25,333 bases of DNA from a virus: positions 1 through 25,333 of IMG/VR virus record IMGVR_UViG_3300035698_001368. One strand, written 5' to 3'. The position numbers were made by a program, and so were the translations under genes. This document shows positions 8,718-24,194 of the stretch, in pieces. The first letter of the stretch is position 1. Each line of letters starts with the position of its first letter. The notes beneath the pieces are model-generated. The model searched no databases and had not been told where the DNA came from. It was given only the letters and a program-made list of their open reading frames with translations.

Positions 8718-9568
8718 GTAACACAGGAAATCAGCCACCATTAACATTTACAACAATACCTGGTACTGAACCTCCTAGTAAAATGGAGAACTTCATCAAC
8801 GCTACAACGAAGTTCATGGGAGACAAGGCTAGGGCTAAAGCAAAAGAGAAGTCAACCCTTATGCAGTCTATGGCTAATAACAATAGGCTAGGACCGGCTA
8901 AGGATGGAGAAGCAGGTTCGTTTGAATATGGAGATCAGAACCTAAAGGTTCTTGATAACGTTAATACTGGTGCGGATCGCCTGAACAACATGAAGGCAGA
9001 TAATTATATCCAAGACCAGATACTTAGTCAATATAATGAGTCATACATCAAGTCTTATCAGGCTGGTTTAAATAAACAACAGGCTGAAGAGATAGCAAAC
9101 CAGACATTAATACAGGCTGGAAGTGCTTATGGTGTTGACATTTCAGGGCTATTGCCACAGTCGTCAGCTCCCGAAAAAAAGAACTTCCCGGCGCTTAACG
9201 CTAAGGTCGATATGAACAATCCCCTGAGGGCATTACCTTGGGTTACTGGAAATGATCCCGATAAATATCTTCAGCAAGGTGAACCCGGTTTCAAGGGTAA
9301 AATCACAAAGGATTCCATGAAAACTAAAAAGACTCCACAGTCTCAGCCAACTGTTCAGCCGACAACGCAACAGCAGGTTGAGAACTTCAAACCACACGTT
9401 CAGGCTATTACCAAACGCGCACCACAGAATCCTGGAACTGACGTTGAAGGTTTAATTCGAGCAATCAGAGCTCATAAGAAGAAAGGTGTTAGTAAGGACA
9501 TGATTATCAAGGAACTAGGTAGTTTCGTTACTAACGCTAATGTTTTTTACGAGGAGGCAATTAAATAA
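8714..9568 (+). CDS. Probable internal virion protein, disordered Gln-rich
   Basis: The product has 284 residues. It has a helical N-terminal half (FINATTKFMGDKARAKAKEK; 'QILSQYNESYIKSYQAGLN') with Gln/Asn bias, and a Pro/Gln/Thr-rich linker near residues 198-218 ('TPQSQPTVQPTTQQQ'). It ends in a compact helical domain ('DVEGLIRAIRAHKKKGVSKDMIIKELGSF'). There are no membrane segments and no enzymatic motif. It sits between the small ejection-like protein and the giant polyvalent gene, coupled by ATGA at its start and TAATG at its end, with GAGGAGG near the end serving the giant gene. It is most simply a middle member of the ejection set, similar in place to T7 gp15. That role comes from context only. 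Confidence 0.5.
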   Translation: MSNTGNQPPLTFTTIPGTEPPSKMENFINATTKFMGDKARAKAKEKSTLMQSMANNNRLGPAKDGEAGSFEYGDQNLKVLDNVNTGADRLNNMKADNYIQDQILSQYNESYIKSYQAGLNKQQAEEIANQTLIQAGSAYGVDISGLLPQSSAPEKKNFPALNAKVDMNNPLRALPWVTGNDPDKYLQQGEPGFKGKITKDSMKTKKTPQSQPTVQPTTQQQVENFKPHVQAITKRAPQNPGTDVEGLIRAIRAHKKKGVSKDMIIKELGSFVTNANVFYEEAIK

Positions 9569-12500
9569 TGGGAAACCTGTTCAAAGATTTCCAACCGATA
9601 AAGAGCCAAGACACCTTATTTGGTGGATTTGACAAGCTTGATGAAACCACTCCGATGGAAGAACCAACGAATCCGGTTCAACCGATAACTGAAGAACCTG
9701 TGGAGTTTGATGTTCCTCAGGGGAACATTGGCATTGGCACCAGTTATGATGCTCAGGGACAAGTCCCGAAAGGGAAGTGGGGCGAAGCTGTGCCTGATGG
9801 TGCTCGTGGGGTTGTCAGAGGCGTCGTTGGGTCAGGCGAAACGTTGGGACAAATGGGACAGGGATTAAGTTATACCGTGCGTAATCTTAAACAGATTCTA
9901 GCACAGCAAGTGGCTCTTTCCAATAAGATGAATTATGAGAACAATTATGGTCGTCACGTTGCTATGGGTGGCAAGAAGTTTGATTACCCTGAGATTAAGA
10001 TACCAGATGTTGTTGAGAATCCAGATGCATCTTTGTTTAATAAGTTGTTAGAGATTACGCTTGGCGGGTATTGGATGAAGAAGGGAGCCGAGAAGCAGGG
10101 AATGAGGTTCGGTGACGATTACCTTCGTGCCTATTCTCGTCAGCTTATGCAAGACAACCGACAGTATATTAAAGACGTTGGGTTGGATAAGGGTGAGGAG
10201 AAGTTCATTAACAAGCTTGGTGTTGGGTCAGTATCACTTGGCTTATCGCTTGGTTCCGCTTTGATAAATCCGGCACTTCCCTTCATAGCGTTTGGTGGGA
10301 TGGCGGCTGCTTCTGAGTTTGATGAACTGCTTAATGCACATGGGAATGAAGAAGGCGAACAAATGCCTTTGGAAGAAATGATGGGACGCTCCTTTGCTGG
10401 TGGCGTTCTTGAAGGTTCAATAGAGGGAATAGGTGTTAATTTCTTACTATCCCGATGGGGTGGCCCGTTACTTAAAGCTGTTGGCTTATGGGCTATGGAA
10501 GGTGCAGGTCAGGAATCGTTTCAGCAGATTTCTGAGAACGCAATGGTCTATCCGGCAAGACACGGAGAGTATGCTAGACCTGAGATGAAAGATTCTTGGG
10601 GAAATGTATGGCATGAAGGTGTTGGAGATGCTGCTTTATTAGGAGCCGTCTTAAGTGGAGTTGCTGGTAGTGCGTCTTCCGTTTACCATGAAGCCAAGGT
10701 TCGTTCAGTATTAGAGAAGGATATGGGATACACAAAGAAGCAAGCGAAGAAGACTGCCAAGAAGGTGTTGCGAAACTCTCGCAGAGGCATCGATAAGCTG
10801 ATGAAAGATTACATCATGGACGATGTAAAGGCGCTTCAAAACGAACTATCCAAAGCAAAGAACATGGATGAGTATAAGCAACGAATGGACGCGTATTTTG
10901 TTGAGAATCCTAGCACGGAAGTTAAGTTATCTAAGGCTCTTGAGGGCGACATTGAATTCTCTGGAAAGAAAGACCCTAAGACGGGTGAGCTTGAGATTAA
11001 TCGAATCCCTGCATCAAAGGAACAGATAGACCCTAAGAACAGAAAGCAAGCAGAGGAATTACTTCAGCGAGTGTGGGGCAAGTTCCTTGCTTCAGCTAAT
11101 GAGAACAACATCAATATCAGCGATGCTAAAGAACCCGGACAATGGATGCAATCGTTCAGGGAAATCGAATACATCTCAGAGATTATCAAGATGGTTGATT
11201 CTGCGCAGAAGGCTGGTGACACGGAAGGCATTACAGAGTATATCGAAGACCAAATCTTTGGTAAATTAGCTAAGAATTTTAAAGACCCGAACAAGACTAA
11301 GTTTAGAATTTATGTGGAACGCTTTAATCAGGACAGAGCTGATAGTGCTGATGCATTGGTGTGGGTTCCGGACACCTTATCTTCAATGTCGATAGGTGAC
11401 CTTGCTCATAATATTTCCAAGATAAATGCTCAGAGAACTCACCCTGAATACGTCAAGCTTGTAGAAGAAGAGAATACCCGCAGGGAAGCCAACGGTCAGG
11501 AGCCGATAGAGATACCAAAGCCAATTACGCCTGATGACGTTCAGTTTGTAGCTCAGAGAACTAAAGAACAGGGCAGTGCCGTAGCGTCTGCGCGGGAAGC
11601 TTTAGACTTTGCGTTGAGAAATCTTAACGAAATCACTGATGCTGAACTTAACTCTGCCGCATTATTGGAGCGAGCAAGAGAAGATTTATATGGACAGAAC
11701 AATGACCCAAGGGATGACCCTTCGCAAGAAGCGGATCCTGTTGACCCTAAGCCAACGCCAACCCCTCAAGTCGAAGCTGCAGTCCAATCTGAGATTGATA
11801 AGATGAAACAGGGAGGTGAGTCTAAGGAGAATCAGGCCGCGGATCAATGGGTATATTTGCATAAGCTAAAAGCAGAACAGATGGTGGATTATTTTTCTAT
11901 TGGATATAATAATGGCGCACCTGTGGTTGGAATAGGTAGTATGTCAAAGAAAGCTCCGTTCGGCCTTGAGGGCGCTGAAATAAAACTTACAGAGGATCAT
12001 AATCGGCGTCTAAAAGAAGCTAATATGTTAAGCGAGGTTGGTAAAAGGAAAGAAGCATCGGACATAACAAAGCAAGTCAAGAAAGAGATCGGGCAATCTA
12101 TCATTGATGGAACAGTTAAGTTTATTGAAAAAAATGTTAACGTTTGGCATGGGACTAAGGAGAACTCAACGCTATCTAATTTAGCTGCGCGGGAGTTTAT
12201 GTATGATGGTGTTCGGTTTATGTCAGTTGAACACGCTTACCAAACTATGAAGTCCGGAACATTTGATAATGCAACTTGGGTTGCTTACGCAGAAGCTGGT
12301 CCGGGCAAGAAGATTGTTGGTAAAAAGCCAGCGCTTACTACGAACAATTACAATATTTTCCTTATGCAGAAACTCGTTCAGGCGTCGTTTGATCAGAACA
12401 AAGATGCCCAGATGGAACTATTGGCTACCGGCCAGGCGGAGCTCACGCACACGCAAGACATGAGCATTTGGAGAAAGGAATTTCCTCGTATCTTGATGGA

Positions 12501-15500
12501 AGTTCGTGAGTCTTACAGGGACAAAGCTGTTAAATATAAGGGAGATTATGTAAATGACCAGATAGTTAGGGCTGAAGTTCAGGCTAATCAAGACAAGACT
12601 TACATCTTTGGCGATAACGTTAAGGCGTGGGGAGTAAAGCAGGAGACTGGAGACGACATTCATTTTGGAGGACAGGCAAAAGAAATACGCGGAGAAGCCA
12701 ACGGCATAGGTATCCCAACGAAACTAGACGCCACGATGAAAGATGATGCATTCATGAGTGACGCTGAGTTTGATAAGAACAAAGAAGTCATTGATAAAGC
12801 TATTGAATTAGTTCCTAAGGAAAAGCCAGTGGTCATACCGTTGGCTGGAATAGGGACAGGTTTGGCTCAGCTGGAGAAGCGAGCACCCAAAACGTGGGCT
12901 TACCTTCAGGAACAGCTTAAGAAGCTCGAGCAATATCCTGTGAAACAATCAGCTGTTGAGCAAGCGCCTACGGTAGAAACAGGTCTATTTGACAACTTTG
13001 CCCTACACCAAGACCCGGGTGATTCTTATGAAGGACATCCTATTCTTAACCTGCGACACGGGATTGAGACATGGTCTTGGACAGGTGATCAGCACAAAGC
13101 ACTGACTGCTATTGGCTCTTGGATTGACCATAGATTTGAAGCTGGAATGCCTAACAAGCAACGGTATTTTGTGCTTGGAGGATACGCCGGAACTGGTAAG
13201 ACCACGATGATTGAGAATATTATCAAGCATTGCCAGAACCAAGGACTTAGCGTTGGAATAGCTGCCTACACAAACAAGGCAGTTTCCGTTGTGCGAAAGA
13301 AGAATGTGAACCTTGGCGTTGATCCAGCCACTCAAGAGAAGATGATTGAGTATGTTGACCCTGATCAGTTCCAGACTTTACATAAGACTTTACAATTAAA
13401 GATGGACCCATTGACAAAGAAGTTCCACTTTGACGGATCCGGAGAGTTACCCAACGTTCTTATCGTTGATGAGGCGTCTATGGTTTCAACTGAGATGCTC
13501 GGCTGGTTGGCAGAAGCATCTGATGCTACTGGTGCTAAGATTCTTTATATGGGCGACAGTGCTCAGCTTCCACCAGTTAAGAGTGCGAATCCTAATATCT
13601 TTACCTCAGATAAGTTTGTTCAGCCCACAAGGGCTCAGCTCACACAGGTAAAGCGTCAGTCATTAAGTTCTAAGATTCTTCAATACATAACAGCCATAAG
13701 AAATTATGAAGGCAACGAAGGATACTTTATCCCTTCAGAAAGCAACAAGGACGTTAGCGTTCAGAGTTCTGCTGATGCAGTCAAGAACTGGTTGCAGGAA
13801 GTAGTTCAACGGCTAAACACTGTTATGATCGTTGGCACAAATGATGTTCGCAAGGTTCGTAATAAGATGGCTCGTGAAGCTAGGTTTGGTAATGGAGAAT
13901 TGCCTCCTCAGGTTGGCGATGAGATTATTGTCATCAATAACGGAAGCCTTCACGCTAAGAATGGAGAGCTTGGCACGATAGAATCTATTGACAGTCTGGT
14001 GACCAAAGACGTTACGGTGGTTGATTGGCGAAATGGTTATCCAATGCCAGCTGGAACTAAGGAAGCCCACTTCTTATACGTTAAGATTAAAGATATTGAT
14101 GAGGTTGTTCCGATGATGCTCGTTCCTGAGCAACACGCTGCCTCTTATATGGGAGAAGATATTGATGGCATGTCATTGCCAGAGGACTTTAGGGTTGAAA
14201 AGAAGGGCAAGAAGGGTAAGGTTTATGCCAAACTGAAGCCTAGCACTGCAATTTCAACGTGGGGTTACGCCATTACTGGTCATAAATCTCAGGGTTCTCA
14301 ATGGGAGAATGTTTACATTGACCCTGCTATTGGCAACTTCCTTACTAATGTCCTTAAGAGAGATGGTCAGATTTCTAACTGGATATACACTGCCGCTTCA
14401 AGAGCATCTGAACGGTTGAACATTATTGATACTGGAATTGCTCATAAAAGCTGGGCTGAAATAGATGTTAAGTCTAAAGAAGCGATTGAATCTGCAGACC
14501 AAGCACCGAAGAAGGACATATCACCTGAAAAGATGATGGAGCTTGTTCAGGAGAAAGAGGAAGACAATGAGCGAGAAGCTGAGGATAAAGCCGCGGCAGA
14601 CCTTATTGTTTCACAAGCCAATGCTGAGAAGATAAAGGAAGAGAAGCAAACGCCACGCGGGCAAGAGCCGAAGCACGTTAGCATTAAGGAGCCTGTCAGC
14701 GTTCAAGAACCTGCGTTCTCTGAGTTTGAGGACTTGGGTATAGCTGATTTAATTAAAGATTGGTCTGATACCCATATAACATCCTTAGACGCTTCAAGCA
14801 ACTTAGAGACATGGAAGAAGACCATAGCGCCTCAGCTTGGAAGGGATCTCACCTCTCAGGAAGAACAACGCCTTATCTATGAGTGGGGCAAGTATCTGAA
14901 AAAGAAGTTTAGTTCCACGCAGGAAAAGAAAGCTATTAAGGATACTGTTTCGAGAATGAAGAAGTCTGGAGCTATTAAGACCCAAAAGCAAGAAGCTGAG
15001 CAGGAAATAGCTATCGGCCAGTTCTTTGAGAAGCGCAGGAAGATTGCCTCTGACATCACAATAGGATTATCCCAACAGGCAGAACCGTTGGATGGAAGTG
15101 ATCCGTCAGATGTTGATGCATCGCGTCCGCAGCCGAACCAACCCAACAGTAAGAGGGCAACTGGCACTACGTTTGTATGCCAAAGCGGGAATGCCTCAAA
15201 CAAAAAGGGGTTTGGATCGGAAGTAAACGCCGACAGGCAGTTTGAGTTAATAGGGGCGCAGTATGGCGTTTTGACTAATGCCTGGTCATTCGGTGGCAAG
15301 TATGGAGATAAGAGCCCAAATGAGGTGTTTTTGAGTAAAGATGAGCTTGCAGAGGGGTGGAAGAAGGTTCTCCTTGCCAACAAAACTATGCGCAGAAAGC
15401 TTGATAATGTGAGCCAACAGGTTAAGAATCTGTTGAGTCGCAACTGGTTTCAGGTTAAGCATGCTGATGAGGTATTTGCTATTGCTCCAATGAAGAACGG

Positions 15501-18500
15501 AAAGGTTCAGGGTGGCACAGGCTACGCTGTTCAGATGGCGATCGATGCTAAGAAAACTGTCCATGTCTTTAACGGGCAGGAGAATACTTGGTATGTTAAT
15601 AGAGGCAGTGGTTGGATTCTTGAACAACCTCCGATTCTTACTCAGAGCTTTGCTGGTGTTGGGTCACGCACTATGGAGGCCAACGGACAGCAGGCAATCA
15701 AGGACCTTTATGACCGCACGTTTACTGGATTTACTGTTCATGACAGCTTAGGTCAGCAGGATACCATCGAAGCAGAAGCCCACGCAGTCGCGAACGAAGC
15801 GTTGACTAAAATCGAGCAGGACAAAGATGACAACCGAATGGTTGCCAGCCCGGAACTCGATAAGGTGCTGCAGGCTTTCGTTGACATGGAGGAGGAAGGC
15901 ATTGCCGTTGATTTTACAGGTGAAGATTTAGTTGAAGAGTTGTCTAAAAGATTAGGGATACACAAGGAAAAGGTTCATGGATTGCTTTATGAGTTTGAGA
16001 ATCTTCAGACATTTGTTCAGCAAGGCGTGATTTCCGGGAACTCCATTGAGGAGCGCGTTGGTAGAGGCCGACGTAGGCAAATAGAGCAGTATGCCTTCAC
16101 CGAGGAACTGCAAGAGATGTCCCTGAGCATGAACTTCGTTTCTTTTGAGTATGCGAAGAAGATGGCACAGCAGGATATGGGAGTTGAATCGGCAGCATTT
16201 GAGGATCCGTCAGTTCAAGTTGACCCATCGGGGGAAACGTTGAGATTAAAGCCGGAGTCAGGCGTTGAGTTCGTGCACGGAACTTCACCAGGGATGACAA
16301 TGGAGGAGAAAAAGAAGCACGATATGTCAATCAACACGAGAGAAACTCCAAAGAGTATGCTTTCTAAACCGTTGACTAAAGCTCAACAGCAAATGAAAGA
16401 TAAGGAGCTGGCTAAACGCAAGCAGGATTCGGACAGGGAAGCTGGCAATAAGCCAATCGAACCTAATAAGAGTTCTGATATGTATATTACTCAGTTGCTA
16501 AAGATAGTTAATCCTTCCGGCAACCTAACGTTTGAACAGTTCAAGCAGATGGAAGCGTTGATCAAGGACGATTGGAAGAAGACGAACTATGCTGAAGAGC
16601 AGATTTATTCTATGGAACTTCCTGACCACTCTACCTTGTTCATGAAGGTTAAGGGATTTGGCAATTACAAGAAAGACGACCGCACGATTACAGCCATCAA
16701 GAACCCAGCTTACGCTCAATACGTTGGGTGGAAGATGAAGGCAGCCCGTAAACATTTAGGCGCTAAAAAGCTTTCATGGGTTGAGCCGGGAGTGGTTTCA
16801 ACTGGGAACAAGGTTCCTTCGGCAGATGAATTGGCAAAGAGATTGAAGTCTATCAATGAGACAATAGCCTCTCTTGAGGAAGCCCGAAGCGTTATCGGTA
16901 ATTATTACATCGATAAGATTAACACAATGGCAGAATCTTTTGACCCGTTGGTGCAAGCCTATGTTCAAGACCTAATGAAGAACATCACGCCTGACAGTAG
17001 TAAGGAAATAATTGCTGCAGTTCGTCTTGCTCAGGCTGATCAACGCACACAAGCCAACGCCTGGGGAGTGCGCGGAGCTGGAGAATACAATCCCAACGAT
17101 AAGATTAAAACTCAGAAGGGAGAGTTGGGTAAGGAGAGAGATGACGGTCGGGACAGAGACACGGAAAACCGTGAAGGCGATATGTCGATGAACGTAATGT
17201 TAGGTGGCGAAGGTCAAAACGTTGATGAAGTTTTTATGCTTGATACAGCTCAGGGTGTGATTTCTTTGCCTAGAGGTCACTATGTTGTTCGAAACCAAAC
17301 AACCAGAGGCGATGACTTGCTGATTGAAACTCCAAATGGAGAGTTCCACACGGTCACTCCTTCTGAATACATGAGGTTTATTAGATCGCCGATTACTTCA
17401 TCGACAGATAGGATTAACTATTTGTTTTGTGGACCGGCAATTACTACTGAGCTGATGAAAGGATTACCTCCTCAGATTATCTCTGATGGAAGTGACACTG
17501 CTCCAATCTTGGGAGTCTGGGATTATATGAAGAAGTTTCCGGGTGTCGTTGGGATAAGTAAAATCCTTGCACCGGACTGGACTAAGGCGATGAACGAGAA
17601 AAAAGTATATGCTCAAAGTAAGTCCCAAAATGATTTAAACAAAGATAACTTGCAGGGATATAAGGTTCTTCAAGAGACATCGATGCTTGGTGCAGTTGCT
17701 ACAATCTTCCCAATCCAAAACGCTTTTACTAAAGACCGTGATGCTATGTGGGCACAGAAGATTCAGGAGCAAAGGGAACAAGGTCAAGAGGTTGATGCGA
17801 TGGCTAAAGACGAAGACGGTCGTTTACTTAGGGACAAGTTCCATCGAATGACTATGAAGTTATTAGCTTCGGCGGCAAATATGATTCACGTTGATGATAG
17901 GTCAGCAAACTATGCATTCACAAGACGTGGCAATGGAGAACATCCAAGTAACAAGCTTTACAAAGACCCAACGTTGGATCAGCGAACTTATGTTGACCGT
18001 GTAATCTTATTCCACGTTTACTTTGGCATACCTTTTACGGGAGATATTCAGAACGACATGAATGACATCTTCGGTTTAAGGACTAAAGATAAGACATATA
18101 AACCCAACGTTAATACTGATGTTTATAAATGGAGCACGCGCAGGTCTCCAGTTTTCTTTGAACTCTTATCAAATCCAAAGGTTGCCAGTGATGATACGCT
18201 GAAGAACCTTCTTGTTATGATGAAGAAGAACGTTGAGAAACCTATTCTTAAGTCGGCTCTAGAGAATGGACTGTGGAAGAATACCAACATCTTCGAGAGT
18301 GTTCTTAACGGATACTTACATAGGTCTTGGTCACTGACTAAGGAGCAACAGGGAACGTCTGGTATTAGCGGATCTCCAAGCGCTACCGGAAGCACGAAAC
18401 GTCACCCAAGAGCATACGATACTTACGAAGCTTTTATTGATGGCGCGTCAACTGACGGTTACATTGCGGCGGACGACATCTTCACGAACTTAATTGACTA

Positions 18501-20544
18501 TATCGTTGAGACAACCTTGCAGGTTAAGCAAGCGCAGATAATCAAGTCCTTCGAAAACGAAAGACAATACGGATTAAACTATGATACTCCGCATACTGAG
18601 AACGATGAAACGATGGGAATTGCTAATATCAAGAACTATGTTCCGGAAGGAGAGTTCTATGCAATCATGTATCCAACTCAAGATGTAATCGTTGCAGAAT
18701 CGGACAGGCTCACGAAAGCGACCGGAAAATTCGTCTCACCTTATCGTATATTAGAGAAGCTAGGATACATCGAAGGCAAATCGAGCCCCGGATTAGCGGA
18801 ATGGAGTCACGGTGCATTTCAGGCTGCGTTTGTTTACAAGCCCCTGAATGACATGATCGAAGTCGCTCAAGGTTCGTTACCTTCATTAGCAGAAATGAAC
18901 ATTGCAATCAAAGGCCTTAGGATGCTTCGATACCTAAAGACAATCAATCCACTCGACCAGGTTCTTCCTTGGGCTGGTGGCGCATTGATGGCAAGACCGA
19001 GAACAATGCCTGTAACCGCGGCTAGGATTGCATTGAAGGCTTTGGTTGCTGTTCCTAAGGGAATATTTGTTACCGGCCCGCAAGTGTTGGCAGGAACTTA
19101 TCGAGGTAGAGATTGGAGTGATGCAACTAAATATTCTCGTGCGCCTAGAGCAATGCGAGATGGCTTATCTGCTATTAGCTGGAATTATATGCTTCACAAC
19201 ATGATGGACACGGCTCAATCTGGTTCACATAAGGTTGGTAAGGTCGTAAGTTTCCCTAACCTAAGACCGTTAGGTGACAGAATGAAGGATTATTTCTTTA
19301 GCGTTGGCGGTGTGAGCACGGCATTGTTTGACGATATGTTGGCTGATGAGGTTTATAAAGGTTATGTCATAATGGCCGAGAAGTATGAAGGTCAAGGCAT
19401 GCACCCTGATGTTGCCTCTAAGCGTGCGGTTGAGTTTATGAATACTGCTGGGTTTATGATGGGACGATCTAAGTTCGGACACGAAAGTATGTGGATGGAC
19501 GCATTGCTTATGTCTCGCCAGTTCTTTGCTACTGGATTGAGGACAGCAGTGTTCGTTGCAGAGCAAGCCCCGATTGCTGGTGATGGCATCAGGAAGTTTG
19601 CATCAACGCAGAAGACTGGCAAGTTCAGTCGTATGTTTAACTCAGTGTTGGGTGGTGAGCTTACTGAGATGGATCACAAGACCGTTGGAAAGGATATTGC
19701 TCACGGCGTTATGTGGATTGGATTCTGGACTACTATCCTAAATTCTATGACCCAATTCGTATTAAGCTTTGATGATGATGACGAGATAGATGAGCATGGT
19801 GAGGTGGGTTCTGAGCTTGGGCTAATGGCTAAGAAACGTTGGATGATATTCAACGAAGGTCAGATGAAGTTTAGTGCTAGATTGCCATTGAAAGACTTCA
19901 ATCAGAAGCGCATTTATGCTTCTACGCAGATGAGCAAATTGTTCAAAGATCAGGTTGATTTCTACGGTGGCGCCATTGATGCTGGATACAACCTGTTCCA
20001 TGAGCCTGAGGAGCACATTGACATCGGTAAGGGATTCCATAAGTGGATGCAGAACAAAGAGGGTATGTATCGACTATTCACAGAGCTTTGGGCAAATGAG
20101 GACTGGTTCAATGACCCGATATACAGTCCTGAATTAGGGTGGAGCCAAGAGAACCTTGAAAAGGTCTTTGGTTACATCGCTACCGAGGCTATAACTCCTA
20201 TTGGAGCTGAGAAACCGTTGGGTGGAGAGAAGCTTGAGCCAGAACTGATGAGAATGTTTGAGGTCTCTGGTGGGAATATCAGGCGAGGCTCAGCGTTGGC
20301 TGAAGGGGATACGTTCAAGGAGTCCAAAAAGGCTAAAACACAGGCAAATATACAGAACTTCTTTGACAGGAGCCGGAGGAAAGAACTGCGAACTATGTCT
20401 CCGGAGCAGCTGAGAGAACACCTGCTGAAACACCCTGAAGATGCTGGTTCGTTTAAAGGTGTCACTAAGAAGCGAGGCGCTCCGTTGGGTATGTTTAAGA
20501 AGGCAAATAGAAAAGCAATTTCAAGATGGCAACAGCGTAAATAG
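9568..20544 (+). CDS. Giant polyvalent virion protein: NADAR, macro-like, SF1B helicase, SLOG-like
   Basis: The product has 3658 residues. Residues about 216-250, 275-312 and 352-377 are Gly/Ala-rich hydrophobic segments, as in injected channel-forming proteins. Residues about 855-985 are a NADAR (YbiA-like) domain: W860-H-G, 'LSNLAAREFMYDG', VEH with E888, and 'ELTHTQD' with D964. Residues about 1010-1120 carry GDN, 'GGQAKEIRGEANGIGIPTK' and 'IPLAGIGTGLAQL', possibly macro-related. Residues about 1175-1640 are an SF1B helicase: Walker A GGYAGTGKTT (1204-1213), DEAS (D1301, E1302), GDSAQLPPV (1329-1337), TGHKSQG (1570-1576), YTAASRASERL (1607-1617). Residues about 1867-2053 are SLOG-like, with 'GGTGYAVQMAID' from 1982 and 'FAGVGSRTM' from 2028. 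Proline- and charge-rich linkers separate the modules. The C-terminal 1500 residues are unrecognised, with a hydrophobic helix near 3375-3400. It is probably packaged and injected. The order of ejection genes supports this; virion packaging is inferred. Confidence 0.85.
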   Translation: MGNLFKDFQPIKSQDTLFGGFDKLDETTPMEEPTNPVQPITEEPVEFDVPQGNIGIGTSYDAQGQVPKGKWGEAVPDGARGVVRGVVGSGETLGQMGQGLSYTVRNLKQILAQQVALSNKMNYENNYGRHVAMGGKKFDYPEIKIPDVVENPDASLFNKLLEITLGGYWMKKGAEKQGMRFGDDYLRAYSRQLMQDNRQYIKDVGLDKGEEKFINKLGVGSVSLGLSLGSALINPALPFIAFGGMAAASEFDELLNAHGNEEGEQMPLEEMMGRSFAGGVLEGSIEGIGVNFLLSRWGGPLLKAVGLWAMEGAGQESFQQISENAMVYPARHGEYARPEMKDSWGNVWHEGVGDAALLGAVLSGVAGSASSVYHEAKVRSVLEKDMGYTKKQAKKTAKKVLRNSRRGIDKLMKDYIMDDVKALQNELSKAKNMDEYKQRMDAYFVENPSTEVKLSKALEGDIEFSGKKDPKTGELEINRIPASKEQIDPKNRKQAEELLQRVWGKFLASANENNINISDAKEPGQWMQSFREIEYISEIIKMVDSAQKAGDTEGITEYIEDQIFGKLAKNFKDPNKTKFRIYVERFNQDRADSADALVWVPDTLSSMSIGDLAHNISKINAQRTHPEYVKLVEEENTRREANGQEPIEIPKPITPDDVQFVAQRTKEQGSAVASAREALDFALRNLNEITDAELNSAALLERAREDLYGQNNDPRDDPSQEADPVDPKPTPTPQVEAAVQSEIDKMKQGGESKENQAADQWVYLHKLKAEQMVDYFSIGYNNGAPVVGIGSMSKKAPFGLEGAEIKLTEDHNRRLKEANMLSEVGKRKEASDITKQVKKEIGQSIIDGTVKFIEKNVNVWHGTKENSTLSNLAAREFMYDGVRFMSVEHAYQTMKSGTFDNATWVAYAEAGPGKKIVGKKPALTTNNYNIFLMQKLVQASFDQNKDAQMELLATGQAELTHTQDMSIWRKEFPRILMEVRESYRDKAVKYKGDYVNDQIVRAEVQANQDKTYIFGDNVKAWGVKQETGDDIHFGGQAKEIRGEANGIGIPTKLDATMKDDAFMSDAEFDKNKEVIDKAIELVPKEKPVVIPLAGIGTGLAQLEKRAPKTWAYLQEQLKKLEQYPVKQSAVEQAPTVETGLFDNFALHQDPGDSYEGHPILNLRHGIETWSWTGDQHKALTAIGSWIDHRFEAGMPNKQRYFVLGGYAGTGKTTMIENIIKHCQNQGLSVGIAAYTNKAVSVVRKKNVNLGVDPATQEKMIEYVDPDQFQTLHKTLQLKMDPLTKKFHFDGSGELPNVLIVDEASMVSTEMLGWLAEASDATGAKILYMGDSAQLPPVKSANPNIFTSDKFVQPTRAQLTQVKRQSLSSKILQYITAIRNYEGNEGYFIPSESNKDVSVQSSADAVKNWLQEVVQRLNTVMIVGTNDVRKVRNKMAREARFGNGELPPQVGDEIIVINNGSLHAKNGELGTIESIDSLVTKDVTVVDWRNGYPMPAGTKEAHFLYVKIKDIDEVVPMMLVPEQHAASYMGEDIDGMSLPEDFRVEKKGKKGKVYAKLKPSTAISTWGYAITGHKSQGSQWENVYIDPAIGNFLTNVLKRDGQISNWIYTAASRASERLNIIDTGIAHKSWAEIDVKSKEAIESADQAPKKDISPEKMMELVQEKEEDNEREAEDKAAADLIVSQANAEKIKEEKQTPRGQEPKHVSIKEPVSVQEPAFSEFEDLGIADLIKDWSDTHITSLDASSNLETWKKTIAPQLGRDLTSQEEQRLIYEWGKYLKKKFSSTQEKKAIKDTVSRMKKSGAIKTQKQEAEQEIAIGQFFEKRRKIASDITIGLSQQAEPLDGSDPSDVDASRPQPNQPNSKRATGTTFVCQSGNASNKKGFGSEVNADRQFELIGAQYGVLTNAWSFGGKYGDKSPNEVFLSKDELAEGWKKVLLANKTMRRKLDNVSQQVKNLLSRNWFQVKHADEVFAIAPMKNGKVQGGTGYAVQMAIDAKKTVHVFNGQENTWYVNRGSGWILEQPPILTQSFAGVGSRTMEANGQQAIKDLYDRTFTGFTVHDSLGQQDTIEAEAHAVANEALTKIEQDKDDNRMVASPELDKVLQAFVDMEEEGIAVDFTGEDLVEELSKRLGIHKEKVHGLLYEFENLQTFVQQGVISGNSIEERVGRGRRRQIEQYAFTEELQEMSLSMNFVSFEYAKKMAQQDMGVESAAFEDPSVQVDPSGETLRLKPESGVEFVHGTSPGMTMEEKKKHDMSINTRETPKSMLSKPLTKAQQQMKDKELAKRKQDSDREAGNKPIEPNKSSDMYITQLLKIVNPSGNLTFEQFKQMEALIKDDWKKTNYAEEQIYSMELPDHSTLFMKVKGFGNYKKDDRTITAIKNPAYAQYVGWKMKAARKHLGAKKLSWVEPGVVSTGNKVPSADELAKRLKSINETIASLEEARSVIGNYYIDKINTMAESFDPLVQAYVQDLMKNITPDSSKEIIAAVRLAQADQRTQANAWGVRGAGEYNPNDKIKTQKGELGKERDDGRDRDTENREGDMSMNVMLGGEGQNVDEVFMLDTAQGVISLPRGHYVVRNQTTRGDDLLIETPNGEFHTVTPSEYMRFIRSPITSSTDRINYLFCGPAITTELMKGLPPQIISDGSDTAPILGVWDYMKKFPGVVGISKILAPDWTKAMNEKKVYAQSKSQNDLNKDNLQGYKVLQETSMLGAVATIFPIQNAFTKDRDAMWAQKIQEQREQGQEVDAMAKDEDGRLLRDKFHRMTMKLLASAANMIHVDDRSANYAFTRRGNGEHPSNKLYKDPTLDQRTYVDRVILFHVYFGIPFTGDIQNDMNDIFGLRTKDKTYKPNVNTDVYKWSTRRSPVFFELLSNPKVASDDTLKNLLVMMKKNVEKPILKSALENGLWKNTNIFESVLNGYLHRSWSLTKEQQGTSGISGSPSATGSTKRHPRAYDTYEAFIDGASTDGYIAADDIFTNLIDYIVETTLQVKQAQIIKSFENERQYGLNYDTPHTENDETMGIANIKNYVPEGEFYAIMYPTQDVIVAESDRLTKATGKFVSPYRILEKLGYIEGKSSPGLAEWSHGAFQAAFVYKPLNDMIEVAQGSLPSLAEMNIAIKGLRMLRYLKTINPLDQVLPWAGGALMARPRTMPVTAARIALKALVAVPKGIFVTGPQVLAGTYRGRDWSDATKYSRAPRAMRDGLSAISWNYMLHNMMDTAQSGSHKVGKVVSFPNLRPLGDRMKDYFFSVGGVSTALFDDMLADEVYKGYVIMAEKYEGQGMHPDVASKRAVEFMNTAGFMMGRSKFGHESMWMDALLMSRQFFATGLRTAVFVAEQAPIAGDGIRKFASTQKTGKFSRMFNSVLGGELTEMDHKTVGKDIAHGVMWIGFWTTILNSMTQFVLSFDDDDEIDEHGEVGSELGLMAKKRWMIFNEGQMKFSARLPLKDFNQKRIYASTQMSKLFKDQVDFYGGAIDAGYNLFHEPEEHIDIGKGFHKWMQNKEGMYRLFTELWANEDWFNDPIYSPELGWSQENLEKVFGYIATEAITPIGAEKPLGGEKLEPELMRMFEVSGGNIRRGSALAEGDTFKESKKAKTQANIQNFFDRSRRKELRTMSPEQLREHLLKHPEDAGSFKGVTKKRGAPLGMFKKANRKAISRWQQRK

Positions 20545-21715: not shown

Positions 21716-22513
21716 ATGCTAGAAGACATAAAACCAATCGGGAACACGATAGACAGGGGAATTTCTTTCATCATCTACGGCAACCCCGGTGTTGGTAAGA
21801 CAACACTTGCCACCACGCTACCTCACGACGAAACACTTATCCTTAATGCCGAAGCTGGTCTCGGAGTATTGCTCGGCAAGAAAGGTCTCCACGTTATGAG
21901 CCTTGTTGACTTCATCGAGGACGGTGAATTTGAAAGGGTAGTTGACAATCTCTACAAAGAACTAAGAACAACCTCTCACGTATTCAAGTATGTCGTATTA
22001 GATAACCTCTCGGAAATAGAGAATCTCTTATTGTCAAGCTTGACTAAACGAAGAGGTAAAGAAGTCCCAACGATTAAGGAGTATGGTGACGTTGCGTTCA
22101 AGATGAAGGAATGGGTTCACCTGTATCGTGACCTTGTCTTCTCAGGCATCAACGTTATCTTTAACGCTTGGGAATTCCCAATGGAGTTACGCAATTATGA
22201 TGGCAATGTATTAACGTTGGTATTGCCAAAGGTATCCAAGAGTTATGCGCCTAATATTTGCGGGTTGGTAGATGTGGTCGGGCACATGGAAGTCCACGAG
22301 AAGTCAGGCAAGCGTTGGGTTAGGTTTAGGCCTAATGACAGTTGTCTGGTTAAATCGCAGTTCGCGGGAATTGGGGGAGCCAACGACCAATCGGGGGAAC
22401 CCGCTGATTTAATGGCGGTGATTGACAAGATCAGGAGCCACAAGTATGGGGAGGACGAAGTGGCTGAACCAGAAGAACAACCTAAAGAAACCAAGAAAGG
22501 TAAAACGAAATGA
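21716..22513 (+). CDS. Sak4-like RecA-fold ATPase (phage recombination)
   Basis: The product has 265 residues. A Walker A motif GNPGVGKTT occupies residues 22-30 with Lys28. The following strand 'TLILNAEAGLGVL' and the Walker B strand 'FKYVVLDNLSE' with Asp96 give the RecA-like core seen in Sak4 and related phage AAA-type nucleotide-binding proteins. The N-terminal core is followed by 'FSGINVIFNAWEFPMEL' and 'LVLPKVSKSYAPNICGLVDVVGHM', features I associate with this family. The Lys/Glu-rich C-terminal tail is probably flexible. Sak4 proteins promote single-strand annealing together with a cognate SSB; the next gene fits that partner. AAGGGGGA precedes ATG 21716, and its stop overlaps the next start as ATGA. 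Confidence 0.8.
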   Translation: MLEDIKPIGNTIDRGISFIIYGNPGVGKTTLATTLPHDETLILNAEAGLGVLLGKKGLHVMSLVDFIEDGEFERVVDNLYKELRTTSHVFKYVVLDNLSEIENLLLSSLTKRRGKEVPTIKEYGDVAFKMKEWVHLYRDLVFSGINVIFNAWEFPMELRNYDGNVLTLVLPKVSKSYAPNICGLVDVVGHMEVHEKSGKRWVRFRPNDSCLVKSQFAGIGGANDQSGEPADLMAVIDKIRSHKYGEDEVAEPEEQPKETKKGKTK

Positions 22514-22962
22514 AAATGAATTGGGATGTGGACACAGAGGGCGGTGGTGGCTTTTACGAAGCTGGCATTTATAGGGTAAAACCTACCGCTATCGAAGAAG
22601 TAGAGGCAAAGTCAGGAAACCAGCAATTAAGGATTAAGGCAACGATCTGCGAAGGACAGCATAAAGGTCGTAAAATTACAGAGCATATCACGTTGCTTGA
22701 ATCGTGTATGTGGAAATTAGTTAAGTTCGTGAAGGCGATGGGAGTTGACGTAACAACGTTGGCTAAAGGTGTCGATACTTCTTCTGGAGAGTTCAGAAAC
22801 TTGCTTAATAAGTGTTTAAATAAATCAACATATTGGAACGTGACCGTTACTAAGAGCCAAGATGGTTCTAAAGATGTCAACGACATTGTTGATTACCAAC
22901 CTGACCCTGATGCAGTCTGGGAAGAACAAGAAGATACTCCGGAGTTTTTGAAGAATGGCTAA
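22510..22962 (+). CDS. DUF669-type ssDNA-binding-like protein
   Basis: The product has 150 residues. It begins 'MKMNWDVDTEGGGGFYEAGIYRVK' and continues with OB-like strands ('QQLRIKATICEGQHKGRKITEHITLLES'), a helical segment ('WKLVKFVKAMGVD') and a C-terminal strand ('TYWNVTVTKSQDGSKDVNDIVDY') before an acidic end (DPDAVWEEQEDTPEFL). This is the pattern of phage DUF669 proteins, which usually sit beside Sak4-type ATPases and are thought to act as single-strand DNA-binding proteins. The acidic C-terminal tail also resembles SSB tails that recruit partners. ATGA coupling to the Sak4-like gene supports a joint role in annealing and replication. ATG 22516 is an alternative start. Confidence 0.75.
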   Translation: MKMNWDVDTEGGGGFYEAGIYRVKPTAIEEVEAKSGNQQLRIKATICEGQHKGRKITEHITLLESCMWKLVKFVKAMGVDVTTLAKGVDTSSGEFRNLLNKCLNKSTYWNVTVTKSQDGSKDVNDIVDYQPDPDAVWEEQEDTPEFLKNG

Positions 22963-23719
22963 AACCAACGGTTGGATTTGCCTACATAGAAAAATGTTAG
23001 ATACCAGTTGGTATGGGAACACTGCTTGTAGAAGCATTGCAGTTCACCTCCTGCTGAGTGCCACGCATAAAGATATTCATGTTATGTTGGGTACTCGGCA
23101 GGTAAAACTGCTTCGTGGGCAATACATCACAGGCAGGCGTAAGTTGGCAAAGGAATTAGGCATGAGAGTTGGTGCTGTTCGTGGTGCGCTAGAGGCACTC
23201 GAAAGAGATGAATTTATAACCCGCGAATCAACCCACATCTGCAGTATAGTAACCATTTGCAACTACAATGCTTACCAAAGTTCAACTCCAGATGTTACCC
23301 ACATGTTCGCCAACAGAGGGGTCCCAGATAGCCAACAGGGGGGTCCCACACAGCCATCAGAGGGGTCCCAGTTAACCACTAAACAACAACTAAACAAATT
23401 AACAAATAAACAATATATAGCGCAAGCGTTCGAAGAACTGTGGTTGGAATACCCTAAGAAGCTTGGAAAGAAACAGGCTCAACGACACTTCATGGCATCA
23501 GTGACAAGCGAAGAAGATGTTGAGAATGCAAGACAGGCTCTAATCAACTACAAGAACAGTCGCTATTGCATAGAAGAAGAGGGTCGTTATATTAAGCATG
23601 GTTCTACTTGGTTTAACAACTGGGCGGACTGGATTACTAATCCGGAGGTTCCATACGAAGACCCGCAGTTCGCTAAGATTAAACAAGCGATGGACAAGGA
23701 GAATGACGATGGAATCTGA
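22955..23719 (+). CDS. Winged-helix phage replication initiator (O-like)
   Basis: The product has 254 residues. The N-terminal domain begins 'NGWICLHRKMLDTSWYGN' and contains a winged-helix DNA-binding pattern at about residues 45-105 ('GQYITGRRKLAKELGMRVGAVRGALEALERDEFI'). A Gln/Ser/Thr/Pro-rich linker (about 115-150) leads to a C-terminal domain with 'EELWLEYPKKLGKKQAQRHF' and 'YIKHGSTWFNNWADW', typical of phage replisome organisers. Such proteins bind origin repeats and load the host or phage replicative helicase. The linker-coding DNA contains three iterons and an AT-rich segment, so the origin probably lies inside this gene. The start is inside the end of the previous gene, with GGAG about ten bases upstream. 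No polymerase or helicase loader is visible nearby, suggesting use of the host's. Confidence 0.8.
   Translation: MAKTNGWICLHRKMLDTSWYGNTACRSIAVHLLLSATHKDIHVMLGTRQVKLLRGQYITGRRKLAKELGMRVGAVRGALEALERDEFITRESTHICSIVTICNYNAYQSSTPDVTHMFANRGVPDSQQGGPTQPSEGSQLTTKQQLNKLTNKQYIAQAFEELWLEYPKKLGKKQAQRHFMASVTSEEDVENARQALINYKNSRYCIEEEGRYIKHGSTWFNNWADWITNPEVPYEDPQFAKIKQAMDKENDDGI
23309..23370 (+). repeat. Three 18-bp iterons at 22-bp spacing, candidate replication origin
   Basis: GCCAACAGAGGGGTCCCA (23309-23326), GCCAACAGGGGGGTCCCA (23331-23348) and GCCATCAGAGGGGTCCCA (23353-23370) differ pairwise at one or two positions and start exactly 22 bp apart. Because 22 is not a multiple of three, the copies are read in all three frames (ANRGVP, then SQQGGP, then QPSEGS), so the conservation is at the DNA level. 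They lie in the linker-coding part of the replication initiator gene, as the lambda O sites do. Confidence 0.8.
23371..23420 (+). other. AT-rich stretch beside the iterons, candidate unwinding element
   Basis: The 50 bases right after the third iteron have 11 G or C (22%), with an A-rich top strand built from AAC, TAAAC and AATAAAC units. This is the expected position of a DNA unwinding element in an iteron origin. It still encodes protein linker (QLTTKQQLNKLTNKQ), so the bias could partly reflect Lys, Asn and Gln codons. Confidence 0.6.
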
Positions 23720-24194
23720 TAAAATACCGGGAATGTGTAAGAAAATTGTCGAAATCTGCACAAAACAAGGCAAATTAGACATGAAAGAGTTCGACCGCAG
23801 GATGGCAATGTTGGTTTGTGATGAGGTGTTGGATGACATGCATTACGTTCAGCCGCCAAGCAAGCCAACGTCTTTGCTTGAGTATAACAAGCTGTCAAAA
23901 GACGGTAAGTTTAGGTTTAATAAGGATAATCCTGATTGGTGTAAAAGCCCTGTTTTTCAGGACTATATGGAAAAAACTTCCGAGGTTGACGCAACCAACG
24001 GTTCAAATGAATACTGGCTAAAATACTGGCTCCCACACTTGGACACGGACACGGATCGTGTGATAAAAGTCCGTAAAGTTCTTATGGATTTCAACGTTCA
24101 CATTCCGTATCCGCAGAAGACAGGGTCATACAAACCCAACGAACTCGCACCAGAAGTCGTTGATATATTCGGAGGCACTGTATGTGGAGAATAG
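23709..24194 (+). CDS. Unknown replication-region protein
   Basis: The product has 161 residues from ATG 23709, chosen because AAGGAG at 23696-23701 is seven bases upstream. ATG 23703 is too close to that site, and a frame reaching back to 23598 lies inside the initiator gene. The N-terminal 40 residues are helical ('CKKIVEICTKQGKLDMKEFDRRMAML'). The middle is rich in Lys, Asp and Asn with 'NPDWCKSPVFQDYMEK', and the later part has 'NEYWLKYWLPHLD'. There is no membrane segment and no catalytic motif that I recognise. Overlap with the initiator's end and with the next gene's start places it in the early operon. It could be a helicase-loader-like or primosome partner by position, but the sequence does not show this. 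Confidence 0.6.
   Translation: MESDKIPGMCKKIVEICTKQGKLDMKEFDRRMAMLVCDEVLDDMHYVQPPSKPTSLLEYNKLSKDGKFRFNKDNPDWCKSPVFQDYMEKTSEVDATNGSNEYWLKYWLPHLDTDTDRVIKVRKVLMDFNVHIPYPQKTGSYKPNELAPEVVDIFGGTVCGE

Follow-up and report, generated by a model that had tools for sequence, protein, structure and literature searches.

The stretch analysed here (the window) comprises 25,333 bases of viral DNA and carries, at 22955..23719 on the + strand, a replication initiator gene of 254 aa, recognised through PHROGs and tblastn, whose product consists of an N-terminal winged helix, a low-complexity linker and a C-terminal helical domain. A DUF669, single-strand-binding-like protein (22510..22962, +; PF05037, E 5.2e-9; phrog_378) is encoded directly before it, and because this gene overlaps the initiator start there is no intergenic origin at that position. 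Further upstream lie a Sak4-like ATPase (21716..22513, +; phrog_124, E 3.8e-42; PF13479), which shares a replication/recombination operon with the initiator, and a PD-(D/E)XK exonuclease. Searches of Pfam and PHROGs recognised no helicase or loader adjoining the initiator in the 25-kb fragment, and gave no significant family match for the next gene (23709-24194). Elsewhere in the window, a giant phage protein of several domains is encoded by a single open frame of 3658 aa (9568-20544). It matches NADAR weakly, includes a DUF7831 stretch and has an AAA/UvrD_C_2 helicase, which is the only Pfam match in its final 2000 residues. A gene truncated by the contig end (24963-25331) strongly matches phage families of unknown function and also encodes a RyR domain (PF02026, E 2.2e-10).

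The initiator matches PHROGs families of DnaD-like helicase loaders and replication initiation proteins, namely phrog_2514 (E 3.8e-27, aa 5-148) and phrog_186 (E 2.5e-12) as well as phrog_270 and phrog_9474, with its C-terminal half matching the replication-initiation families. Pfam yielded weak winged-helix matches only, with RepA_N absent from the matches listed, and a sequence search of the PDB gave no meaningful match. By tblastn, 240 phage records were matched, some of them annotated as O, gp18 or DnaD-like replication proteins, and these relatives include Lc-Nu ORF34, the O proteins of HK620 and HK022, phage L gp18, S. aureus DnaD-like proteins and proteins of Vibrio phages. Overall, the nearest relatives are the DnaD-like proteins of phrog_2514/186 and initiators of the P22/L/HK022 type. 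An N-terminal profile of the family scores the window protein, itself a member of the seed alignment, at 142 bits.

AlphaFold2 predicts the winged helix with high confidence (pLDDT 90-98 over aa 11-100) and a helical C-terminal domain with moderate confidence, joined by a linker that is disordered at aa 122-147 (pLDDT under 50) and whose codons overlap the iterons described below. The winged-helix codons (aa 6-109; 22970..23281, +) were delimited from this model and from structural matches to many wHTH proteins (Z 8-9), and the domain is presumed to bind the iterons; the N-terminal domains of the initiators 4pt7 and 4pql are matched at Z 8.0-8.2, tied with CRP and other unrelated wHTH proteins. 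The C-terminal domain (about aa 150-230; 23402..23644, +), which is similar to that of a relative termed L001 and to the C-terminal part of Lactococcus phage replication proteins, may recruit a helicase or helicase loader.

Within the linker codons, the three 18-bp repeats reported in the initial annotation were confirmed. The copies (GCCAACAGAGGGGTCCCA at 23309-23326, GCCAACAGGGGGGTCCCA at 23331-23348 and GCCATCAGAGGGGTCCCA at 23353-23370) show 17/18 identity to copy 1 and start 22 and again 22 bp apart, so that the array can be written as three iterons on the + strand: GCCAACAGAGGGGTCCCAGATA (23309..23330), which carries the family-type box GCCAACA, GCCAACAGGGGGGTCCCACACA (23331..23352) and GCCATCAGAGGGGTCCCAGTTA (23353..23374). 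Counted from the ATG at 22955, the repeats start in frames 0, 1 and 2, and they encode the unlike peptides ANRGVPDS, QQGGPTQ and SEGSQL. The accompanying claim that selection on the protein cannot have produced this near-identity also held, as the lag-22 score is 27.5, whereas 5000 synonymous recodings that preserve the protein sequence and the phage codon usage reach 12.5 at most. The same recoding rules out amino-acid repeats as the source of the periodicity. A tandem-lag score of at least 14 (lags of 8-59 bp) occurs nowhere else in the 25,333 bases, apart from the array's own echo at lag 44, and an exact search of viral contigs for the window's double iteron found none.

The array is followed at once by an A-rich stretch (23376..23420, +), which at 22% GC (27 A and 8 T among 45 bases) agrees with the earlier description and which, given the rise in AT content after the array in relatives, is probably a DNA-unwinding element. 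By nearest-neighbour energy, 23380-23419 ranks second among the least stable 40-bp stretches in the window. Part of the A-rich stretch (23382-23410) is quasi-periodic (AACAACTAAACAAATTAACAAATAAACAA, lags of 8 and 16), and an A-rich periodicity of 8-9 bp is seen at the corresponding place in several relatives.

The periodicity of the repeats extends weakly downstream, as a degenerate fourth step (23375..23396, +) made up of ACCACTAAACA (23375; 5.3 bits with the family matrix described below) and ACAACTAAACA (23386; 3.3 bits). Both are 11 bp long, match each other at 10/11 positions and stand in step with the repeat grid. At a lag of 11, the base match in 23309-23407 is 0.41 vs 0.27 in the synonymous null (p = 0.0006). 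Since lag 11 exceeds its null and 11-mers follow in step, the visible 22-bp unit lies on an 11-bp grid; our preferred reading is that each unit spans two 11-bp steps, of which one carries a canonical box.

We collected relatives of the initiator from viral contigs, bacterial contigs and phage records, using subgroup alignments as queries, the whole N-terminal alignment (A2) being too divergent for that purpose. This gave 297 sequences, with 291 open frames that fit the N-terminal profile and 141 left once similarity above 85% was removed. Behind the winged helix, the strongest tandem lag was 11 bp in 90 of the 141; the best lag was 22 in 7 (the window included), 23 in 6 and 12 in 7, and 15 had none above threshold. 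A dedicated detector found a lag-11 array in 118 of the 141, starting at a median of 14 nt past the winged helix and with a median length of 49 nt; the window fails this detector, which looks for contiguous lag-11 repeats. When the mean base match was compared with synonymous recodings made with each gene's own codons, the family lag spectrum peaked at 11 (z 28.7) and 22 (z 21.9), z values whose significance is overstated by the non-independence of relatives. The localisation of the arrays is the stronger point, with 117 lag-11 segments in the linkers vs 3 in the remaining DNA of the loci (4.6 vs 0.005 per kb). The family unit is approximately ACCA(A/G)CAAATG, and in the two 20-nt bins following the array the AT content exceeds that of the gene itself by 0.114 and 0.119. 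Some relatives have a pattern like the 22-bp one of the window; L159 (1623-1875), for example, a relative whose C-terminal domain is also similar, alternates two half-units at 23 bp, and additional copies lie 79 and 160 bp upstream of its array.

A matrix built from the arrays of the 118 relatives, with the window excluded, picks one box per repeat, in order CCAACA, CCAACA and CCATCA. These GCCAACA halves score 9.7, 8.8 and 7.5 bits, while the GGTCCCA halves, at the intermediate steps 23320, 23342 and 23364, score -3.8, -5.9 and -5.5 bits. These scores identify the GCCAACA half as the conserved box, which goes against the initial proposal that a half-symmetric GGG-T-CCC core is what the winged helix contacts. 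GGGTCCC was not seen among the unit consensuses listed for relatives and looks peculiar to the window phage, either as a spacer under its own constraint or as a second contact. The window shares with the family a homologous N-terminal winged helix of the phrog_2514/186 kind, an AT-rich stretch directly past the array, and an 11-bp-phased CCA(A/G)CA array behind the winged helix, the last as a 22-bp variant in which only alternate steps are canonical.

Exchange of domains among the relatives indicates which part of the protein the iterons follow. L001 has a C-terminal domain 56% identical to that of the window, joined to an N-terminus of the lambda O type (PF04492, E 1.8e-22), and its linker repeats, which are spaced 69, 42 and 23 apart, differ from those of the window and have cores such as CTAGGGAACAAATTGGCACTAG. 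Conversely, relatives with another C-terminus retain the 11-bp array. Because L001 pairs a similar C-terminus with another N-terminus and other iterons, we conclude that the iterons travel with the DNA-binding domain. The co-variation of iterons and winged helix that had been envisaged for related phages is thus borne out by this domain swap, and also by a Mantel comparison of unit similarity with N-terminal identity (r 0.27 vs a null maximum of 0.10), to which shared descent contributes. Residue-level covariation between the recognition helix and the iteron was also considered, giving signals for R61 with position 3 and for G73, G77 and A78 with position 11; these were set aside, as comparable signals occur elsewhere (e.g. 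L33) and the effective number is about 22.

In several relatives one more unit lies 67-91 bp ahead of the array, where it coincides with the codons of the wing motif T-I-K-S-T-N-K-F (ACC ATC AAA TC. ACC AAC AAA TT.). Such iteron-like units in the wing codons, spaced 12 bp apart, are found in L004, L005, L011, L013, L159 and others. An unbiased scan of the winged-helix codons, which compares the match of third bases to the phage's own iteron with that of synonymous codons, placed the best sites at codons 89 (Z 12.6) and 93 (Z 9.5); codon 85, which shares their register, reached 6.5, and the 95th percentile was 2.6. In 58 of 69 phages the codon for Thr-89 ends in the base that stands at iteron position 3. 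When the phages were grouped at 45% identity into 20 clusters and averages taken over these, the result was positive in 14/18 clusters for codon 89 (p 0.03), 13/14 for codon 90 (p 0.002), 16/20 for codon 93 (p 0.01) and 15/17 for codon 94 (p 0.002); codon 85 was not significant over clusters (11/16). Among 64 control tests at other codons, not one reached p 0.1 in the positive direction.

From these codon statistics, a distal pair of iterons in the wing codons is likely at the level of the family. In the window, the corresponding probable sites are ACCCGCGAATC (23219-23229; 5.6 bits) and ACCCACATCTG (23231-23241; 5.3 bits), 12 bp apart on the + strand, with 5 of 6 third bases matching across 23219-23241; the probability product for these five is about 0.001 for a set picked post hoc, and taken alone the window's pair is weak, so that we assign it tentatively. 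We see an even chance that the origin in this family exceeds the linker array, with wing codons doubling as two iterons and initiators on both clusters possibly phased or looped.

Known systems provide several points of comparison. In lambda, intragenic iterons adjoin an AT-rich stretch (PMC3349717, PMC8022706), and the initial annotation likened the present locus to the lambda O gene and its origin. The likeness stands for the layout, in that iterons and an AT-rich stretch lie inside the initiator gene, but does not extend to membership in the lambda O family: PF04492 is absent among the Pfam matches of the initiator up to E 0.1, the only lambda-O-like signal is a remote match to the O-like phrog_345 (E 3.4e-5), and both the N-terminal family and the iteron sequence differ from those of lambda O and ori-lambda. 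The winged-helix N-termini of Salmonella phage L gene 18 and HK022/HK620 O are homologous to that of the window (29-31% identity), and in these phages, as in the window, iterons follow the winged helix, in 11-bp units such as TGTCCAACGGA. Gene 18 of phage L has been described as containing six imprecise 11-bp repeats, which are called the likely origin (PMC8022706), and the records of HK620 and phage L annotate a rep_origin inside the initiator-family gene. The units of phage L, HK022 and HK620 are contiguous 11-mers, partly in two groups, and the C-terminal domain is unlike that of the window, whereas in the window canonical boxes recur only every 22 bp and alternate with a GC-rich GGGTCCC step.

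Homologous N-termini with 11-bp arrays in the same place are also found in Lactobacillus phage Lc-Nu ORF34 and an S. aureus Dubowvirus DnaD-like protein. Their arrays are contiguous 11-mers, and Lc-Nu has a type of C-terminal domain in common with the window, whereas the C-terminus of the S. aureus protein is of the DnaB_2 type. In a comparison of the C-terminal part alone, the domain is 36-39% identical to those of Lactococcus P335-type replication proteins (ul36, phi31, BK5-T); for BK5-T, a repeat_region is annotated inside the replication gene, with repeats of another kind and a 45-bp spacing. RepA_N plasmid initiators, whose DnaD-like N-terminal domain binds iterons (PMC7145576), resemble our reading of the window protein in having an iteron-binding winged helix. 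An intragenic iteron origin is a known design, and the window adds to it a member in a 22-bp variant. Neither an 11-bp rule for the whole family nor sites in the wing codons are described in the literature we searched, which leaves out most subscription journals.

These observations lead us to read 23309-23420 as very probably the replication origin of this phage, situated among the linker codons of the gene for its initiator. On this reading, the winged helix (aa 6-109) would bind the CCA(A/T)CA boxes on one face of the helix, with four boxes, the fourth degenerate, at a two-turn spacing on the 11-bp grid. Binding would be cooperative, and the assembled initiators would destabilise the adjoining A-rich stretch, after which the C-terminal domain may recruit the replicative helicase or a helicase loader. 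What counts against the origin reading is that the alternate steps (GGTCCCA) misfit the family matrix. GC skew lends the site no backing as an origin, as the cumulative skew climbs through it with no inflection, and, since the contig is a 25-kb virus record that breaks off within a gene, there could be another origin beyond its ends.

Iterons of plasmids and of lambda also serve regulation, and the repeats might be initiator sites mainly for control, acting in autorepression, handcuffing or copy-number control, with replication starting elsewhere. A box-like sequence just past the initiator start codon (ACCAACGGTTG, 22964-22974; 8.5 bits), which may be an autoregulatory site or a chance match, would suit such a role. 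The array itself, however, lies 350 bp inside the gene rather than at its beginning, relatives too have an AT-rich element immediately after the array, and the records of HK620 and phage L annotate the site as the origin, which makes a mainly regulatory function improbable. Still less credible is a protein-level repeat or a recent, functionless duplication of DNA: although the linker is predicted to be disordered and is rich in Q, N, T and K in many relatives, the copies stand in three frames and encode unlike peptides, none of the 5000 synonymous recodings reaches the observed score, and across the family the arrays are confined to the linker.

A different question is the mode of binding, where an alternative compatible with the origin would be a genuine 22-bp iteron of the lambda kind, with an initiator dimer on the entire GCCAACA...GGGTCCC unit and no 11-bp grid. 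Conservation of 18 of the 22 bp, the GGGGTCCCA half included, would fit such a unit, as would the relatives with best lags of 22 or 23 and the alternating half-units of L159. Against it, lag 11 in the window is above its null, the family spectrum peaks at 11 and the family matrix recognises one half only, so that we regard dimer binding to the whole unit as possible but rather unlikely. The two modes do not exclude each other, as the GGGTCCC half could be a second contact.

If the 11-bp grid and the origin reading are right, phage origins would become locatable from sequence, by proceeding from a winged-helix initiator to the 11-bp-phased boxes behind it and on to an A-rich stretch, and a recognition code could be tested on the natural pairings of a winged helix with its iteron, which number more than 100. 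Should the wing-codon sites be real, the T-I-K-S-T-N-K-F motif and two DNA-binding sites would share the same bases, and the recognition of the DNA-binding domain and its own coding sequence would have to change together. This would be a strong case of a sequence that is at once the code for a protein and the binding site of that protein.
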